Assembly (NCBI GenBank): GCA_022226935.1
Contig: CP092081.1
Coordinates: 1,771,820 to 1,835,819 of the forward strand
DNA: 64,000 nt
Direction: 5' to 3'
From: Nitrospira sp.
GTDB lineage: Bacteria; Nitrospirota; Nitrospiria; Nitrospirales; Nitrospiraceae
The notes under the pieces were generated by a model. The model was not told where the DNA came from. It saw only the letters and a program-made list of their open reading frames with translations, and made no database searches. The translations under genes and the position numbers were made by a program. Positions 3,483 through 56,820 of the stretch are shown here, in pieces (positions within the stretch are counted from its first letter, which is position 1; each line of letters opens with the position of its first letter).

Positions 3483-4691
3483 TCACGCGCGCCCTTTTCT
3501 TCTGGAGCGTGCGCCTTGTTTCTGCCGATACACCATCATGGCCTCGTCGAGAATGTCTTTGACGGGACGACCACTCATTTCGGCGACGCGTTTACAATCT
3601 TCATATTCCGGAGCAGCCTTGCTGCGCCCCGGTCGAATATCAGCGAGTTTCATGCGCACATCCTGTCCATTGACCCGCACTGAAGCAAACCGGCGCGGCA
3701 AGACACGGCGCTCCACCTCGCCAATCCGCACACCAAGAGCCGTCGTCTCGGCAAACAGCACAGCCAACACTGCCTCTGTGTGCTCCCGCGGCGCAAGGAC
3801 AGATAGGACATTTCCAGGCCGGCCCTTCTTCATGATCACCGGCGCCAGCGTGGCATCCACGGCCCCCGCGGCAAACACCTGGTCGAACACGGTGTCGTAC
3901 ACTTGCGGGTTCACATCGTCGAGATTCGTCTCGAGCTCAACGATCGTTTCCTCCGCCCCGCTCGCGGGCGCTGCTTCACCGATGAACACGCGCAACACAT
4001 TCGCCCACTGCGGTGGATCAGCAGTCCCAGCTCCATACCCCACCTGGTGTACTTGCAGGGATGGCAGGCCGCCGAATTCGGTGGTCACGGTTTTCAGCAA
4101 GGCCATCCCGGTCGGCGTCGTCAGTTCCCGTTCAGGCCCCTTGGCATAAATCGGCACGCCGACCGCGAGAGCCGCCACGGCTGGTCCCGGTACGGGCAAC
4201 GCGCCGTGCGCCGACTGAAGCATGCCGGATCCGACATTGATGGCCGAGGCCGTCACACACTGGATGTCGAGAAGATGCAGGCCCAGGATCCCACCGACGA
4301 CATCCATAAACGAATCGATCACGCCTACTTCATGAAAATGGACGTGCGACGGCTCAACACCGTGGGCCTTCCCTTCGGCGTCTGCCAGCACATCGAATAC
4401 CGCCTGACTTCGTTCTTTCACCACCGGCGGGAGGCCGCTTTTATGAAGAATTCTGGCAATTTGTGCCAGGGTTAACGGGGTGCGAAAGCCCTTGTCTATC
4501 AGAACATCGACCTTGGTCGCCGTGATGGCTCCGCGCTCAACTTTCTTGCGCGCCAGCCGATAGCCATCGATCTTCAGCGAAGCAAGGCCACGCACGAGAT
4601 CTTTGAACGGCAACCCCGCATCGACCAACGCACCCAATGTCATGTCGCCGCTGATGCCGGAAAAACAATCGAAATGCAGATGCCTCGCCAC
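3483..4691 (-). CDS. larC: Nickel pincer cofactor biosynthesis protein LarC
   Basis: LarC inserts nickel into the pyridinium-3,5-bisthiocarboxylate mononucleotide used by lactate racemase and related enzymes. The N-terminal HLHFDCFSGISGDMTLGA is the family hallmark, and the motif HVHFHEVGVIDS is a likely metal-binding site. The chosen GTG start at 4691 has AGGAG four bases upstream and gives 402 aa beginning right before the hallmark; a TTG at 4721 would add ten residues. It is one continuous frame, unlike the lactobacillar version made by programmed frameshifting. larB is 1 kb away; larE and larA are not in the window. Confidence 0.92.
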   Translation of the reverse strand: MARHLHFDCFSGISGDMTLGALVDAGLPFKDLVRGLASLKIDGYRLARKKVERGAITATKVDVLIDKGFRTPLTLAQIARILHKSGLPPVVKERSQAVFDVLADAEGKAHGVEPSHVHFHEVGVIDSFMDVVGGILGLHLLDIQCVTASAINVGSGMLQSAHGALPVPGPAVAALAVGVPIYAKGPERELTTPTGMALLKTVTTEFGGLPSLQVHQVGYGAGTADPPQWANVLRVFIGEAAPASGAEETIVELETNLDDVNPQVYDTVFDQVFAAGAVDATLAPVIMKKGRPGNVLSVLAPREHTEAVLAVLFAETTALGVRIGEVERRVLPRRFASVRVNGQDVRMKLADIRPGRSKAAPEYEDCKRVAEMSGRPVKDILDEAMMVYRQKQGARSRRKGRA

Positions 4692-4775
4692 GTCACTCCT
4701 ACGATTGACTCGTTCGCGCAAACGAGCGGCATCTTACCGGAGCCGCACCCAGACAGCAATCATTCCGCTCGTTCG

Positions 4776-4804
4776 TTGACAGCCCTGCCATGCTGTGTTA
4801 TCCC
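4776..4804 (+). promoter_or_regulatory. Possible sigma70-type promoter for the 4860 gene
   Basis: A perfect TTGACA at 4776-4781 is followed after 17 nt by TATCCC at 4799-4804, a weak match to TATAAT. It faces the plus-strand gene starting at 4860 in the divergent gap from larC. The -35 and spacing are good and the -10 is poor, so this is tentative. Confidence 0.35.
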
Positions 4805-4859
4805 CAATCAAGAGACGCATTCCATCGGCCACCAGCCACCACCTGCGACACCGACACCC

Positions 4860-5429
4860 ATGACCAATTCAACACCAGCTCCCCGGATCAGCGTCAAACG
4901 CGCACCGACAGGAATGACATTCGGCCTGCTGCTTCTGTTCAGCGGCATCTGCTTACTGGGGGAGCCAAATGTGCTTCTCGCCAAAACCAAAGGCAAAAGC
5001 AGTGTCCCGCGCCCTGAGCCGGATCTAAAAATTCTCTCGCTGCAAGCTGCGCCCATGCCGTATCGGCCGCAGGAGGGCCCCTTCCATTTCATCGCCACCG
5101 TGCAATTGCCGAAGGAAGTCGATGAACATCTCATGCTGGAGGTCTCCGCCCTCGTCACCTCTTCCTCCATGACCTCGCTGCGCTTTCTCTCGATTCGCCA
5201 ACCGGTCAATGAACATGTCCAGACCACGCCAAGCGCGAACGGCGATACGCCGCAAAAACATGTGCAGGTCGACCTCGAATGGGACGGGCTGGATCACAAC
5301 AAACAACAGATCCCGATCGGATCGTATGAGTATGAAGTGCGGGTCAAGCTGTTGAGCAACGGAGAGAAGGGCCAGCGCACCCAAATGCTCTCTTGGCCCA
5401 AACGCGGCAAGATCGTCGTCAAGAACTAG
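4860..5429 (+). CDS. Hypothetical membrane-anchored or secreted protein
   Basis: A 189-aa protein of unknown family. About 20 residues after the start at 4860 comes a hydrophobic stretch (TFGLLLLFSGICLLG), which is either a signal peptide or a membrane anchor. The rest is soluble with a beta-rich look and may be an immunoglobulin-like periplasmic domain: it has alternating hydrophobics, FHFIATVQLP and IPIGSYEYEVRVKLLSNGE. An earlier in-frame start at 4674 would overlap larC. The stop codon at 5427-5429 touches the first structured repeat element. Function unknown. Confidence 0.7.
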   Translation: MTNSTPAPRISVKRAPTGMTFGLLLLFSGICLLGEPNVLLAKTKGKSSVPRPEPDLKILSLQAAPMPYRPQEGPFHFIATVQLPKEVDEHLMLEVSALVTSSSMTSLRFLSIRQPVNEHVQTTPSANGDTPQKHVQVDLEWDGLDHNKQQIPIGSYEYEVRVKLLSNGEKGQRTQMLSWPKRGKIVVKN

Positions 5430-5553
5430 CAGGATCGTGAAAAAGGCCGCCAGCTTTGTTCTCGCGTCGCTCTGGGCCTCAACGTACCGCAAGGGTACGC
5501 CTCGCCCCCTCGCTCGCTGCGGCCGCGTTGGACGGCCTTTTTGACGATCCTGC
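5429..5553. repeat. Structured intergenic repeat element, copy 1
   Basis: A 125-bp element whose ends form a 21-bp inverted repeat: GCAGGATCGT, one mismatch (G5439 against G5543), then AAAAAGGCCG. The left end starts on the last base of the preceding stop codon. In the middle CGTACC-GCAAG-GGTACG makes a second hairpin at 5482-5498. Read on the minus strand, the interior (GGCCGCAGCGAGCGA, GGCGAGGCGTAC, GCGAGAAC) matches copies 2 and 3. It lies between convergent genes, so it could act as a bidirectional terminator. Confidence 0.8.
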
Positions 5554-5642
5554 AAACGCTCTGAATATCTTCCCAAACTTACGTATCAGTTTTTTGGCCC
5601 CAGCATCGCAATGGTCCGTGAGCGCTGCCGAGTGATCGGGGA

Positions 5643-6437
5643 TCACCCCCGGACTCGATTCTTCTTGCCTTTGGGCTCCTCACTGTCCATTCCACTCACC
5701 ATGTTGATGCGGTGAGCCAGGCAGCCGGCGCCGAACCCGTTATCGATATTCATCACGCCGACCCCCGCCGCGCAGGAATTCAGCATCGTCAATAACGCGG
5801 CCAAGCCGCCGAAATGTGCGCCATATCCACGACTCGTTGGCACCGCAATCACCGGTTGCCGGACCAATCCACCGACGACGCTCGGAAGCACACCATCCAT
5901 CCCGGCCGCCACGATGATCGCCCGCGCGTCATGTAACCGGTCTTGTTGGCCAAGCAGCCGATGTAACCCCGCCACGCCCACATCGTACAAGGTGTCAGTC
6001 TTGCTGCCCATGATATCGGCCGTCACGCGCGCTTCTTCGGCGATGGGTATATCAGCCGTTCCCGCCGTGACAATGAGCACGGACCCTCGACGCGCCAGCT
6101 TGGGGGGCACAATGGCCACCACCCGCGCCGCCTCGTGATAGGTCGCCCGCTTGCTCATCCGCAACAACGCGCGCGCGACGGAAGGCTCCACTCGCGTCGC
6201 GAGCAACGAATTATTCTTCAGCAACAGGGTCTTGGCGATGGCCACCACCTGCGCCACAGTTTTTCCTTCGCAAAAAATGACTTCCGGGAAACCCTGCCGC
6301 AGGGCGCGGTGGTGATCGAGCGAGGCAAATCCTAGGTTCTCATACGGCAGCGTGCGTAACCGATGCAGCGCATCCGGCACCGCCACGGCTCCCTGTTGAA
6401 CCTCCAGGAGCAATGCCCGCAACTGATCTTGATTCAT
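5643..6437 (-). CDS. larB: Nickel pincer cofactor biosynthesis protein LarB
   Basis: LarB carboxylates the pyridine ring of nicotinic acid adenine dinucleotide and hydrolyses it, the first step toward the nickel pincer nucleotide. The C-terminal half resembles PurE-type AIR carboxylases: VTAGTADIPIAEEA, AAGMDGVLPSVVGGL and VPTSRGYGAHFGGLAALL. The 264-aa length is normal. The ATG at 6437 overlaps the gpsA stop by 4 nt (ATGA), implying translational coupling. The gene converges on the 4860 gene across repeat copy 1. larC lies just beyond; no larE is present here. Confidence 0.92.
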   Translation of the reverse strand: MNQDQLRALLLEVQQGAVAVPDALHRLRTLPYENLGFASLDHHRALRQGFPEVIFCEGKTVAQVVAIAKTLLLKNNSLLATRVEPSVARALLRMSKRATYHEAARVVAIVPPKLARRGSVLIVTAGTADIPIAEEARVTADIMGSKTDTLYDVGVAGLHRLLGQQDRLHDARAIIVAAGMDGVLPSVVGGLVRQPVIAVPTSRGYGAHFGGLAALLTMLNSCAAGVGVMNIDNGFGAGCLAHRINMVSGMDSEEPKGKKNRVRG

Positions 6438-13553: not shown

Positions 13554-14012
13554 ATGGACCTTCCGGACCTGAAAGACGATCCTCACCTCAAAGTGCTTCG
13601 TCCCCTGGTCGAGACCTATCTCGCGTTTTGGCGCACAGATAGCCGCCACGTGCGCTCGCTGCGGCTCACTCCGTCACAATTCGACGTGATCGCGACCCTC
13701 GGTGACACGAAGGGACTGACCTGCGCCGAACTTTCGACCGCCACGTTGGTAACCAAGGGCACACTCACCGGCGTGCTGGACCGGCTGGAGGCCAAAGGAC
13801 TGATTCGTCGAACGCCGGTGGCCGATGATCGGCGAAGCACTCGTATCTGCTTGACCGCCAAAGGCAACAAGCTGTTCCAAACCACCTTCGCCGCGCACAT
13901 CGCGTTCCTTCGTCCCTTCTTCCAACGCGCGCTCTCGGCCGCCGAAGCCGATCAATTGCGCACCCTGCTCCTGCGTCTCCATCAGAGTTTTCAGGAGAAA
14001 CCGGGCGCATGA
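13554..14012 (+). CDS. MarR-family transcriptional regulator
   Basis: A 152-aa winged-helix regulator. LTPSQFDVIATLGDTKG begins the DNA-binding domain, followed by the recognition helix region LVTKGTLTGVLDRLEAKGLI and the wing RRTPVADDRRSTRICLT. Terminal helices provide dimerisation. These proteins usually repress a neighbouring gene until a small ligand binds. The stop overlaps the next gene's ATG by 4 nt, so it is co-translated with the beta-lactamase-fold hydrolase. The ligand cannot be read from sequence. Confidence 0.92.
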   Translation: MDLPDLKDDPHLKVLRPLVETYLAFWRTDSRHVRSLRLTPSQFDVIATLGDTKGLTCAELSTATLVTKGTLTGVLDRLEAKGLIRRTPVADDRRSTRICLTAKGNKLFQTTFAAHIAFLRPFFQRALSAAEADQLRTLLLRLHQSFQEKPGA

Positions 14013-14767
14013 TTCGCCTCACGGTGCTGGGGTCAGGCACGAATGTTCATCCCACGCGCGCGGCAGCCGGGTACCTGATCCAAACCGATCAGACATTTCT
14101 GTTGGATTTCGGACCACGCACCCTCTCCAATTTGATCAAGAGCGGAGTCGATCGCCACAGCATCACGCACATTCTCTTTTCCCATTTCCATGCGGACCAT
14201 TTCGCCGACTTTATTCCGTTCTTCTTTGATGCCGTGATCTTCTGCAAATACCAGGGTGGGACCAGACCGCCGCTGACGCTCATCGGTCCGCGTGGCACCG
14301 CCACCTTGATGCGAGCGATGATGACGACGTTCCCGAGTTTCGATCGCGCGCCCTTCCGAGTCACGATCCGCGAGGTATCTGATCGCAGCTTCCGGATCGG
14401 CGAGACGCGCATCATACCCGCCACCGTCACCCATGCGCCCAAACTGCATTGTGTGGGGTACCGGCTCGAATATCAGAATCGCGTGGTGACCTATTCGGGT
14501 GATTCTCAATATTGCGAGAGTCTGGTGCGCCTCTGCCACGAGGCGGACTTCGCCGTGCTCGACTGCTCGTTCCCTGAGAACCGGCCCGGGGCCGGGCATT
14601 TGCATGCGGGCCTGTGCGGGCGCGTCGCCCAGGAAGCCGGGATCGACCAGTTGATCTTGTCTCATTTTTACCCGATTGCCGAACAGTATGACGTCCGCGC
14701 GCAGGCGAAAGAGTATTTTGCGGGAAAAGTTCGAATGGCGCGAGACCTGCTCAAACTGCGGGCTTAA
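14009..14767 (+). CDS. RNase Z-like MBL-fold metallohydrolase
   Basis: A 252-aa protein of the metallo-beta-lactamase fold. The N-terminal TVLGSGTNVHPTRAAAGYLI resembles ribonuclease Z-type enzymes, and the metal motif is SHFHADHFADF (about residues 52-62). Further ligands are in VTHAPKLHC, YSGDS, DCSFPE with HLHAG, and LSHFYP. It lacks the long exosite arm of true tRNase Z as far as I can tell, so the substrate is open (phosphodiester or small-molecule ester). The preceding MarR gene overlaps it by 4 nt and probably controls it. Confidence 0.85.
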   Translation: MIRLTVLGSGTNVHPTRAAAGYLIQTDQTFLLDFGPRTLSNLIKSGVDRHSITHILFSHFHADHFADFIPFFFDAVIFCKYQGGTRPPLTLIGPRGTATLMRAMMTTFPSFDRAPFRVTIREVSDRSFRIGETRIIPATVTHAPKLHCVGYRLEYQNRVVTYSGDSQYCESLVRLCHEADFAVLDCSFPENRPGAGHLHAGLCGRVAQEAGIDQLILSHFYPIAEQYDVRAQAKEYFAGKVRMARDLLKLRA

Positions 14768-14815
14768 GTTGCTGCATGACTCCGCACGCGTTCAGCGAAG
14801 AACAAGGACGGCGCA

Positions 14816-15000
14816 GAGCGCTCAAACAGACTGTCCATCAAGGCCGCAGCGAAGTCCACGGCGCGAAGCATCATGAGCGCCACGTTTGTGGACGCCGGCG
14901 AGTCGGTGAGCCGGCAGTGTCGTGGGACAAGGCGTCCCCTCGCGGTATGTTGAGGATCTGAACGAGACGAGAACGCCGCCGGCGGACTGTTTCAGCGCCC
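14816..15000. repeat. Structured intergenic repeat element, copy 2
   Basis: A 185-bp element between the convergent hydrolase and SirB1-type genes. Its ends pair as GCGCT, a C-C mismatch (14823 against 14993), then AAACAG, with a few more pairs inward including wobbles. The interior has AAGGCCGCAGCGA at the left and CGAGAAC at the right, as in copy 3, but carries an extra insert of about 60 bp. Its central hairpin is degenerate. The right end is 4 nt from the stop codon of the minus-strand gene. Confidence 0.7.
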
Positions 15001-15004
15001 TAAG

Positions 15005-15865
15005 CTAGAGCCCCTCTTCGCGCTGCTCACAGCCCAGGATCTCCACGAACCGCGGCAAGCGATTCTTTTTCAGCGGCTCGTCGAGCTTATTGTAGATAGC
15101 GAGGAGATTTTTGATCATGCGAGCCAGAATGGCTCGGGTCGGGCTCTTCTGCAGAAAACGATCTTCAAAGCCGTAGCCGGCTTCGGTCAGGAACCGCGCG
15201 CAGTTCTTTTCCGTCAGCAGCGCGCCGCCGTTGAAACAGTCGATGAAAATTTTGTACCGATCCGAATCGAACTTGACCAGGAAGTGGCCGGGCATCCCGA
15301 TACCGTGCACCGGCAACTGTAACCGCCGGCCGATCAGAAGATAGACCGTCGAGAGACTGATCGGAATCCCAGTCCGGCGATCGATGACGCAATTCAGATA
15401 ACTGTTTTCGACCTCATAGTAATTCTTGGTGTTTCCTTTGAATCCGGCCTCCGTAAACAGATAACGGTTGAGCGCCTTGACCGTCTCTTCGCCGGACACA
15501 CGGGACCCGATTTGTTCCCGGACATCCTGCGCCATACGATCCAGCTGCCGCCGGTACGCCTGCACGTCCAGCGTGGGATAGGCGTAGCGGGCGAGGATAA
15601 ACGCGCCGGCTTCCAGATCGACTTGATCATCGGGAAACGCGATCAGATCGCGAAGCTCTTCTTCCAACCTCGCGCCGCGGATTTCCTCCAAAACGGTAAC
15701 GATGCGATCGGCCATCTCCGGCTGCTCAATTTCCGCTTCCTGAAGCAGCGGGACCGCGCAGTCGCCGAAATCGATCAGCTTCCCGCTGATCGTTTTGACG
15801 ATCCGTTCATCCTCGTCACCGAGGAGCCGGATCAGGGCGCGGATTTGGCTTTCGTTCACGAACAT
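15005..15865 (-). CDS. SirB1-type transglutaminase-like protein
   Basis: A 286-aa protein of the SirB1/transglutaminase-like family. Helical repeats fill the first 80 residues (IRALIRLLGDEDERIVKTISGK). The catalytic-type core shows NSYLNCVIDRRTGIPISLS with a cysteine, and VHGIGMPGHFLVKF with a histidine. The ATG at 15865 was chosen. A GTG at 15895 overlaps the exporter stop as GTGA and would add ten residues. It ends an operon with an ABC exporter and a LON-domain protein. The enzymatic role is unknown; some members look like non-catalytic binding proteins. Confidence 0.85.
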   Translation of the reverse strand: MFVNESQIRALIRLLGDEDERIVKTISGKLIDFGDCAVPLLQEAEIEQPEMADRIVTVLEEIRGARLEEELRDLIAFPDDQVDLEAGAFILARYAYPTLDVQAYRRQLDRMAQDVREQIGSRVSGEETVKALNRYLFTEAGFKGNTKNYYEVENSYLNCVIDRRTGIPISLSTVYLLIGRRLQLPVHGIGMPGHFLVKFDSDRYKIFIDCFNGGALLTEKNCARFLTEAGYGFEDRFLQKSPTRAILARMIKNLLAIYNKLDEPLKKNRLPRFVEILGCEQREEGL

Positions 15866-15891
15866 GGAGGATCCCCGGGGCGTAACCGTGC

Positions 15892-16671
15892 TCACCCGAT
15901 CGCCCGTCGGAAGGCCCGCGCACCACCATACAGACACAGTGCATCGAACACCACCATCACGCCGATCACCATGCCCACATGAGGTAATGCCTCGGCCCAT
16001 CCCTGGAGAATGAGCGGGCGGACGGCATCAATGGCCCAGGTCATCGGATTGAACTGCGCGAGAAATCCCATCCAGCCCGGCATGGCTGCCAGGGGCACTA
16101 AGGCGGAGCTCAGGAAAATCATGGGCAGCGAAAGGAAGCCGAGCACGGAAAAGAAGTCGCCGTGACTCTTCACGGAAAACGCCATGGCCATGGAGATGGC
16201 CGTCAATCCCACTCCGAACATCATGCCGATGAGCAAAATCGTCGCCACCCCCGCCAAGCCGGTCACCGGGTGCACCCCGAACAGCCAGGCCACCGCCAGA
16301 ATAACCAAGACCTGCAGCGACGTGATGGTGGTCACAAAAATGAATCGACTGAGAATGACCGAGGTCCGATGAATCGGCGTGGACATCAGGCGTTCGAGAA
16401 AACCGTTCTCCTTATCGAAGAGGAGATCGACGCCGCCGGCCAACCCGTTATTGAGCACCGTCATGACGACGACCCCGGCGGTCAGAAAACTGATGTAACT
16501 CGACGACTGGGTCACTTGCATGTCCGCCGCGCGTTGAAACAGGTTGCCGAAGAAGATCAGCCAGAACAACATCGGCTGCACGAGCGTAAACAGCATGCTG
16601 AACTTTTCCCGGCTCAGCCGCCGTACCCAGCGCATCGTCAACGCCCGAATCTCCTGCGAATATTCCTTCAT
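15892..16671 (-). CDS. ABC-2 type transporter permease (DrrB-like)
   Basis: A 259-aa membrane protein with six hydrophobic segments typical of ABC-2 permeases such as DrrB. Conserved features include FSMLFTLVQPMLFWLIFFG near the start, the cytoplasmic GVDLLFDKENGFLERLMSTP that contacts the ATPase, and FLSLPMIFLSSALVPLAAMP. It lies 29 nt after the DrrA-type ATPase gene and slightly upstream of the SirB1-type gene. Substrates of this class include drugs, lipids or polysaccharides; nothing here decides between them. Confidence 0.9.
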   Translation of the reverse strand: MKEYSQEIRALTMRWVRRLSREKFSMLFTLVQPMLFWLIFFGNLFQRAADMQVTQSSSYISFLTAGVVVMTVLNNGLAGGVDLLFDKENGFLERLMSTPIHRTSVILSRFIFVTTITSLQVLVILAVAWLFGVHPVTGLAGVATILLIGMMFGVGLTAISMAMAFSVKSHGDFFSVLGFLSLPMIFLSSALVPLAAMPGWMGFLAQFNPMTWAIDAVRPLILQGWAEALPHVGMVIGVMVVFDALCLYGGARAFRRAIG

Positions 16672-55633: not shown

Positions 55634-55674
55634 TTTTCGCTCGATCGACGTTGAGCCGTAGCGATACCCTGTTC

Positions 55675-55797
55675 GCAGCCGCTCAAACGGGCTTCCAGCA
55701 AGGCCGCAGCGAGCGAAAGGCCGAGGCGTACTGCATTAAGTACGTCGAGGGCTTGAGAGAAGCGAGAACGAAGCTGGAAGCCCGTTTCAGCGGCTGC
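55675..55797. repeat. Structured intergenic repeat element, copy 3
   Basis: The best copy, 123 bp. The ends form a 25-bp inverted repeat with one C-C mismatch (55684 against 55788). The interior has GGCCGCAGCGAGCGA, the hairpin CGTACT-GCATTA-AGTACG, and GCGAGAAC. The right end touches the stop codon (55798-55800) of the minus-strand ATP-grasp gene. It lies between convergent genes, like the other two copies. Confidence 0.85.
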
Positions 55798-56820
55798 CTA
55801 TGCGGCTTGGGCGGGACGCCATCGAAGCCCCACATGCAACAATTCCTGCAGCAGGTCTTTGTAGGCGAGGTTGGCTTTTTCGGCCGAGTCGGCGAAGTCT
55901 TCACCGCTGGCGATTTGGGGATTGGGATTGGCTTCAATCACATAGACCGTTCCTGCTTGGTCCATCCGCATGTCGATACGCGCATAGCCGCTCAGTCCCA
56001 AGGCGCGATAGACACGTTTGGCGAGGTGCTGAATATCGTCGACCACTCCATCCGGCAAATTCCTCGCTTCACATGAACGGATGCCGTATTTGTCTTGGTA
56101 TTTGCGGCTCCATTTGACCCGCTGCGTCGCGATGCGCCGCGCCTCGTCTGGCATCTTATCCATGACCAATTCCCAGACGGGAAAGACCTGCAAATGGGCG
56201 TTGCCCATCACGCCGACATACAGTTCCCGCCCTTCGATATACCGTTCGACGAGCGCGCCGGTTCCCACATTGTCATGGATAAATGCCACCCGCTCGCGCA
56301 ACTTCACGTCGTCATCGACAATAGACGCTTGCGAAATGCCCAGCGAGGCTTCTTCGGTCACTGACTTCACGATCAAGGGAAAGGGCAAGTATTTGGGCCG
56401 ACGCACCATGCGATGCAGCGGGACCACCATAAATTCAGGATACGGAATCCGATGGTACGACATCACCTGCTTGGCTAAGGCCTTATCCCTCGCCAGCATG
56501 AGTCCGCGCGGATTGCAGCCGGTGTAAGGAATCCGCATCAATTCGAGATAGGACACGACATTCTGGTCGTACACCGCCACGCCGTCGAACTCTTCCAACA
56601 GGTTGAAGGCAATGTGCGGCTTCCAATCCTCCACCGCCGCGCGAATGACTTCCAGGTCACTTTTCACGCCGAGCGCCTGCACCTCGTGGCCAAGTTTGCG
56701 CAGCGTCGAGACCACGTCGTACTCGGTTTTCCATGCGGCGGTCTCCAGATCCTGTCCGTTGAGTTGCTCCGGAGGGACCAGATCTTTATGCATGAGCACG
56801 AGCACCCGCATTCGTCTCAT
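55798..56820 (-). CDS. ATP-grasp protein related to D-alanine--D-alanine ligase
   Basis: A 340-aa ATP-grasp ligase. The N-domain has YDVVSTLRKLGHEVQALGV and HIAFNLLEEFDGV; the ATP-binding part has LARDKALAKQVMSYHRIPYPEF, FPLIVKSVTEEASLGIS, and the metal-binding ARIDMRMDQAGTVYVIEANPNPQI. True Ddl would have other contacts, so the substrate is open (a peptide or amino-acid ligation). It is coupled by ATGA to the metallopeptidase gene. Confidence 0.85.
   Translation of the reverse strand: MRRMRVLVLMHKDLVPPEQLNGQDLETAAWKTEYDVVSTLRKLGHEVQALGVKSDLEVIRAAVEDWKPHIAFNLLEEFDGVAVYDQNVVSYLELMRIPYTGCNPRGLMLARDKALAKQVMSYHRIPYPEFMVVPLHRMVRRPKYLPFPLIVKSVTEEASLGISQASIVDDDVKLRERVAFIHDNVGTGALVERYIEGRELYVGVMGNAHLQVFPVWELVMDKMPDEARRIATQRVKWSRKYQDKYGIRSCEARNLPDGVVDDIQHLAKRVYRALGLSGYARIDMRMDQAGTVYVIEANPNPQIASGEDFADSAEKANLAYKDLLQELLHVGLRWRPAQAA

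Follow-up and report, generated by a model that had tools for sequence, protein, structure and literature searches.

The hairpin-forming intergenic elements described here probably represent the right half of a MITE of the Nitrospirales, the hairpin of which has been selected after insertion and exapted as an mRNA 3′-end element, a reading to which we assign a probability of roughly 70%. Three copies are present in the window (the whole 64,000-nucleotide stretch of a Nitrospira sp. genome that was analyzed) at the positions named in an earlier note on this DNA (5429 to 5553, 14816 to 15000, and 55675 to 55797), and the internal blocks reported there are common to all three (Table 1). Convergent genes, called with a simple codon score, flank each copy. 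The earlier note also described outer stems that differ between copies yet pair within each. The arms do pair within copy 1 (5429 to 5449 and 5533 to 5553, a 21-nt inverted repeat, 95% complementary) and copy 3 (55675 to 55699 and 55773 to 55797, 25 nt, 96% complementary), but alignment of copies indicates that the stems are not free, being variants of one consensus, GCAGGATGNTCAAAAAGGCCGTCCAGC/GCTGGCGGACTTTTTCANCATCCTGC. Compared with shuffled sequence, folding gave z scores of about -5.7 for copy 1, about -9.3 for copy 3, and -0.7 for copy 2, which folds no better than shuffles because an extra internal module interrupts it. In none of the three was a clear left terminal repeat recognized 75 to 79 nt to the left of the hairpin, and the window copies are thus not complete MITEs. 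The boundaries first proposed are too small, as the complete form has ~75 to 79 further bases on the left side.

Table 1. Features of the three window copies and of their neighboring genes
Feature	Position	Strand	Remarks
Copy 1 target site CTAG	5426-5429	.	TAG (5427-5429) serves as stop codon for the + strand gene 4674-5429; from empty orthologous sites and gene calls
Copy 1 hairpin element, right half of putative MITE	5428-5554	-	138 bits, covariance model; recent insertion, empty sites in near relatives
Copy 1 right arm, the right terminal repeat	5429-5454	-	CTAGCAGGATCGTGAAAAAGGCCGCC read on +; matches ends of complete units
Copy 1 left arm, internal near-copy	5528-5553	-	C for G (TCAAAAA)
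AIR carboxylase domain protein	5643-6437		neighbor of copy 1
Metallo-beta-lactamase fold protein	14009-14767		neighbor of copy 2
Copy 2 hairpin element, enlarged by internal module	14812-15006	+	54.7 bits, covariance model
Copy 2 inserted internal module X	14854-14920	+	also in other long copies
Copy 2 CTAG	15005-15008	.	with stop codon of the - strand gene 15005-16000; gene calls
Transglutaminase-like protein	15005-16000	-	neighbor of copy 2
Copy 3 hairpin element	55674-55798	+	118 bits; old, also retained by nine further species at this convergent site
Copy 3 CTA	55798-55800	-	TAG stop codon of the - strand gene 55798-56820; adjoins right end of hairpin
D-Ala-D-Ala ligase C-terminal domain protein	55798-56820	-	neighbor of copy 3

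Family, complete units, and mobile origin

A search of this genome and its relatives with a covariance model, the check suggested in the earlier note, recovered many copies with strong covariation among them. The model (R1), built from 12 copies with 44 pairs, detected 74 copies at an E value of ≤0.001 in this 4.23-Mb genome (89 rows at ≤1, some of which are the opposite strand of the same copy). Most Nitrospira congeners contain 39 to 103 copies, one congener with a complete single-contig genome (G004) has only 2, and copy numbers are patchy in other families of the order. Among the matches listed, exact matches to the core pattern in named species were almost all from Nitrospira/Nitrospirae, including “Ca. 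N. defluvii,” N. moscoviensis, and N. lenta, and the pattern was also seen in two MAGs, one of Phycisphaerae and one of Acidobacteria (L311 and L338). Comparison of the window with Rfam gave zero matches above any family's gathering threshold, and searches for relatives in plasmids, phages, and E. coli gave no match. No report of the family in Nitrospira was found in the open-licence papers searched; RepRanger gives REP counts for N. moscoviensis and does not name this family there.

The earlier note reasoned that all copies of a transposon would share their ends and that these elements were hence not transposons. This reasoning does not hold. In one congener (G013), about nine near-identical copies have identical ends and lie in units of 207 bp that are bounded by terminal inverted repeats and by target duplications of 4 bp; they consist of the hairpin plus 75 to 79 bases to its left, starting CTAGCAGGCTGCGGAAAAAC, and are followed by unrelated flanks. 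A systematic scan of the collected loci yielded 43 complete units of 200 to 378 bp (mode, 207 bp) with GCAGGnTGnnGAAAAA at both ends, and the flanking 4 bp were identical in 32 of them (CTAG in 25, TTAG in 4, and CTAA in 3, i.e., YTAR). Copies with identical ends, which had been expected to refute selection on structure, do demonstrate mobility; the structural constraint is nonetheless real. One complete unit was nested inside another of the same family (L126).

Another relative (G001) carries a 1.3-kb IS5-type element whose terminal repeats and CTAG duplication are those of the MITE. It encodes a 363-amino-acid DDE transposase (NCBIfam IS5 family NF033581, 285 bits against a cutoff of 140; Pfam DUF772 and DDE_Tnp_1) and lacks the hairpin, and the MITE lacks the transposase gene. 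Because of its terminal inverted repeats, its YTAR duplications, and the IS5-type element with the same ends, the family is classified from sequence features as a MITE, putatively non-coding, short (mode, 207 bp), and present in many copies. The shared ends and duplication suggest that an IS5-family transposase acting on these ends would move the MITE; a search of this genome for a transposase with such ends found none. The complete element of ~207 bp comprises a YTAR duplication, the left terminal repeat GCAGGCTGnnGAAAAAC, a linker of ~58 nt, and a 125-nt hairpin, the outer right arm of which is the right terminal repeat and the left arm an internal near-copy.

Read on the strand on which the hairpin terminates in the right terminal repeat, the left arm has the sequence GCAGGATGnTCAAAAAGgCCGtCCAGC and the right arm the sequence GCTGGcGGaCTTTTTCAnCATCCTGC. 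The left arm has C where nearly all true ends have G (TGnnGAAAAA) and thus reads TCAAAA instead of TGAAAA. The presence of TCA in both arms creates a C·C mismatch within the stem, which is kept in 104 of 114 copies. The terminal repeats differ by subfamily (CGG, CTG, and TTG), and the left arm follows the right. The stems are therefore copy specific yet self-matching because one arm is the terminal repeat itself and the other its internal near-copy, and part of the covariation between copies does not reflect host selection. In addition to the TCA/TCA mismatch, the hairpin core has conserved unpaired motifs (GGCCGCAG and GAGAAC), tandem G·A pairs, and conserved G·T pairs.

Some copies contain further modules. 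In long copies, module X (GTTCACGACGCGC...CACGTTTGTGAACGCCG.CGAG..GGTGAG.CGGCAGTGTCTT) was found in window copy 2, at G000:C1:2824726-2824918, and in L124, L102, L106, and L133, on the 5′ side of some copies and the 3′ side of others, as if interchangeable. An apical module Y (TTCTTACCCGCCCGCCCC...GAGACA...TTTTCCCATG) takes the place of the loop at G000:C1:547921-548096 and 2906117-2906288 and in L129 and L130. Module Y is a high-copy repeat in its own right in G013 and G011 (about 40 matches each), with some matches ~150 bp apart.

Selection on the hairpin after insertion

At the orthologous site, copy 1 is missing from G002 (flank identity, 93%), G010, G005, G008, and G003. Where the site is empty in G002, G010, and G005, the gene has retained its terminal ...CTAG, the target containing the stop codon. 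A complete unit occupies the site in G011, and related sequence is found there in G006 and G009. The convergent site of copy 3 holds one or two hairpins, whole or partial, in nine further species, and the stems at this site differ by matched changes between species, e.g., GGATGTTCAAACGGG/CCCGTTTCAACATCC versus GGATCTTCAAAAAGG/CCTTTTTCAAGATCC. Judged from these alignments, copy 1 is a recent insertion and copy 3 an old, retained one. Insertion into preexisting hairpins, an idea raised by the TCA...TCA symmetry, was ruled out, as no such hairpin occurs in the copy 1 empty sites.

Changes after insertion were compared at 34 clean orthologous copies in one species pair, this genome and G010 (flanks about 85% identical). 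In the outer stem, 43 pairs had changed on both sides and still paired, versus 19.1 ± 2.6 in 2,000 permutations that held column composition fixed (0/2,000 reached this value). In a strict subset of 19 copies with hairpins ≥80% identical, chosen to rule out replacement by another copy, 12 compensatory pairs were found, versus 5.2 ± 1.4 (0/2,000). The excess was weaker in the inner helices (8 versus 4.0; 51/2,000). Compensations were mostly single isolated pairs (29 of 36 runs). Divergence was 0 to 9% at unpaired columns 31 to 37 and 95 to 100, versus 33 to 55% over most of the apical loop. Furthermore, among the 11 pairs with a left neighbor outside the coding alignment, mean identity was 84% for hairpins, 55% for the adjacent non-coding 70 nt, and 50% for shuffled sequence. 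With covariation across copies, a compensatory excess at orthologous copies, and a conserved hairpin beside an unconserved non-coding neighbor, selection on structure, as the earlier note had claimed, is borne out: the hairpin is shown to have been selected as a structure after insertion.

The left terminal repeat is recognizable in only about 4 of 73 copies of this genome (0.7 expected by chance) because the neighboring DNA is nearly randomized. A decayed left end can still be made out at the appropriate distance in some copies, and the relatives suggest that the copies of this genome descend from complete units.

An asymmetry between strands (G·T over A·C) was considered as proof of a one-strand RNA and dropped, since it was too weak with the two special G·T pairs removed (36:19 in the inner and 47:40 in the outer helices). 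Either strand may therefore act, and a role of the hairpin at the DNA level is possible.

Stop codons, putative function, and alternative explanations

A gene converges on the hairpin right end in 59 of 72 copies. When open reading frames of at least 100 codons are considered, 44 of the 73 copies in this genome and 41 of the 61 in G010 have a right end that overlaps a stop codon, compared with 1 and 6, respectively, for the left end and 0 to 3 for shifted-position controls. In the complete, younger units, a stop codon is overlapped by the right end in 14 of 43 and by the left end in 4 of 43. Right-end overlap is commoner in the retained set (85/134 versus 14/43; P = 0.0007), although the right-to-left ratio differs significantly from that of complete units in this genome only (P = 0.02) and not in G010 (P = 0.44). 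The location of right ends at stop codons is attributed to YTAR insertion and retention of the useful orientation together.

Hairpins close to one another had the same orientation in 17 of 22 cases. Co-oriented runs with several hairpins per few kilobases, in places one per intergenic gap, were observed at G000:C1:3581669-3585717, 876856-886309, and 3121494-3129468 and at G010 C2:385897-393703. Integron attC sites, suggested by such clusters and by the stop codon overlap, were rejected: RYYYAAC/GTTRRRY boxes were absent by eye from the aligned arms, and complete units are bounded by terminal repeats and target duplications.

In the proposed explanation, insertion at a CTAG or TTAG holding the stop codon would do little harm because the duplicated target preserves the stop. 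As the comparisons above show, the hairpin alone then persists: copies abutting stop codons are long retained, and their stems undergo compensatory change as linker and left end decay. Most likely, the hairpin acts in the RNA of the adjacent gene as a 3′-end element that would set the position of the transcript end and its stability. Plain intrinsic termination accounts for the data only in part, since T-runs are short and base pairing is preserved past the T-run as well; 3′-end processing or protection is favored over simple U-tract termination. Control of processing or stability by the hairpin, as reported for ERIC (PMC2229807, PMC10969869), would fit both position and orientation. A hairpin ≤15 nt from a stop codon can reportedly stall ribosomes in E. 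coli (PMC12306157), and an effect on translation is likewise possible. It is also conceivable, if rather speculative and unlikely, that the hairpin core serves as a specialized recognition site for some protein or RNA of the Nitrospirales, scattered by the transposon to dozens of gene 3′ ends and wiring a posttranscriptional regulon with interchangeable internal modules.

The hairpins could instead be plain bidirectional intrinsic terminators carried by the MITE, with a GC-rich stem and A and T tracts ending convergent transcription and selection for termination only. The siting of all three window copies between convergent genes, the stop codons adjoining hairpin right ends, and a terminator-like score in copy 1 (5521 to 5537 plus TTTTT) agree with this, but a T-run of at least 5 is present in only 19 of 134 copies and is not conserved, compensation extends beyond it, many copies sit between tandem genes, and the conserved core motifs are unnecessary for termination. 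We regard termination alone as possible but doubtful. A mutational origin of the paired changes is less probable still. Template switching between arms during replication, a documented mechanism, corrects quasi-palindromes and can mimic compensatory change (PMC8794818); the arms are long, and the hairpins would then be neutral. Such correction would also remove the C·C mismatch, yet 62 of 68 orthologous copies retain it; most compensations are isolated pairs, and the conserved unpaired motifs, the identity of 84% in hairpins versus 55% in their neighbors, and the right-end siting at stop codons would be left unexplained.

Two further alternatives concern the origin of the hairpin. It may be an older host 3′-end element, or a separately mobile one, that an IS5-type MITE subsequently acquired as its right end, so that solo copies are not remnants of complete units. 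The core is far better conserved than the linker, most copies in this genome have no recognizable left end, and the IS5-type element of G001 has no such hairpin, all of which favors this order of events. However, overlap of CTAG/TTAG with stop codons is the outcome expected of transposon insertion, loss of the left end is expected where the DNA beside old copies is randomized, and decayed left ends at the right distance persist in some copies, which makes capture rather unlikely. A REPIN moved as single-stranded DNA by a Y1 (RAYT) transposase would likewise be a long imperfect palindrome at gene 3′ ends, and Y1 proteins are present in some congeners. This origin is very improbable, as Y1_Tnp (PF01797) has zero matches in this genome and in G002, G003, G005, and G010, the latter four with many copies, and terminal inverted repeats with 4-bp duplications are not expected from single-strand transposition. 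We therefore prefer descent from the MITE with selection on the hairpin after insertion.

Known elements and implications

The kind of element (a MITE; an ERIC-like 3′-end hairpin) is already known. ERIC/IRU of enterobacteria is similarly a ~125-bp imperfect palindrome of MITE nature, with tens to hundreds of copies at gene 3′ ends, and an orientation-dependent effect on the upstream transcript has been reported (PMC2229807, PMC10969869). However, the Nitrospira family has a 4-bp YTAR duplication, whereas ERIC has TA-type ends; the host phylum is different, and the Nitrospira hairpin makes up just the right half of a complete unit. In E. coli, which carries ERIC, the family consensus had no match among 5,426 genomes. 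Correia/NEMIS, RUP, and Coxiella QMITE2 are also bacterial MITEs with transcripts that fold into long hairpins; QMITE2 is mainly in 3′ untranslated regions, and NEMIS transcripts are cut by RNase III (PMC2229807, PMC10969869). They differ in hosts and ends, being set apart here by published descriptions. REP/REPIN sequences with RAYT resemble the family as extragenic palindromes near stop codons in high copy number (PMC3116915, PMC8266576) but have another mobilizer and another end structure, and this genome has no Y1 transposase. The autonomous IS5-family element (NF033581) of G001 shares the terminal repeats and CTAG duplication of the MITE but not the hairpin. The family, its host group, and measured compensatory evolution after insertion were not found in the open-licence papers searched.

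MITEs are usually regarded as neutral or mildly harmful. In Nitrospira, key nitrite oxidizers and complete ammonia oxidizers, what began as a selfish sequence appears to have turned into an element of gene ends across the genome. Because complete copies of young age, empty sites, and old copies at orthologous positions occur together in one group of genomes, the route from selfish insertion to a conserved structure at gene ends can be traced stepwise. Compensatory evolution was measured at orthologous insertions, not between paralogues alone, and the built-in C·C mismatch helps to tell selection from template-switch correction. The family also offers dozens of matched natural experiments on the effect that a 3′ hairpin at a stop codon has on expression.
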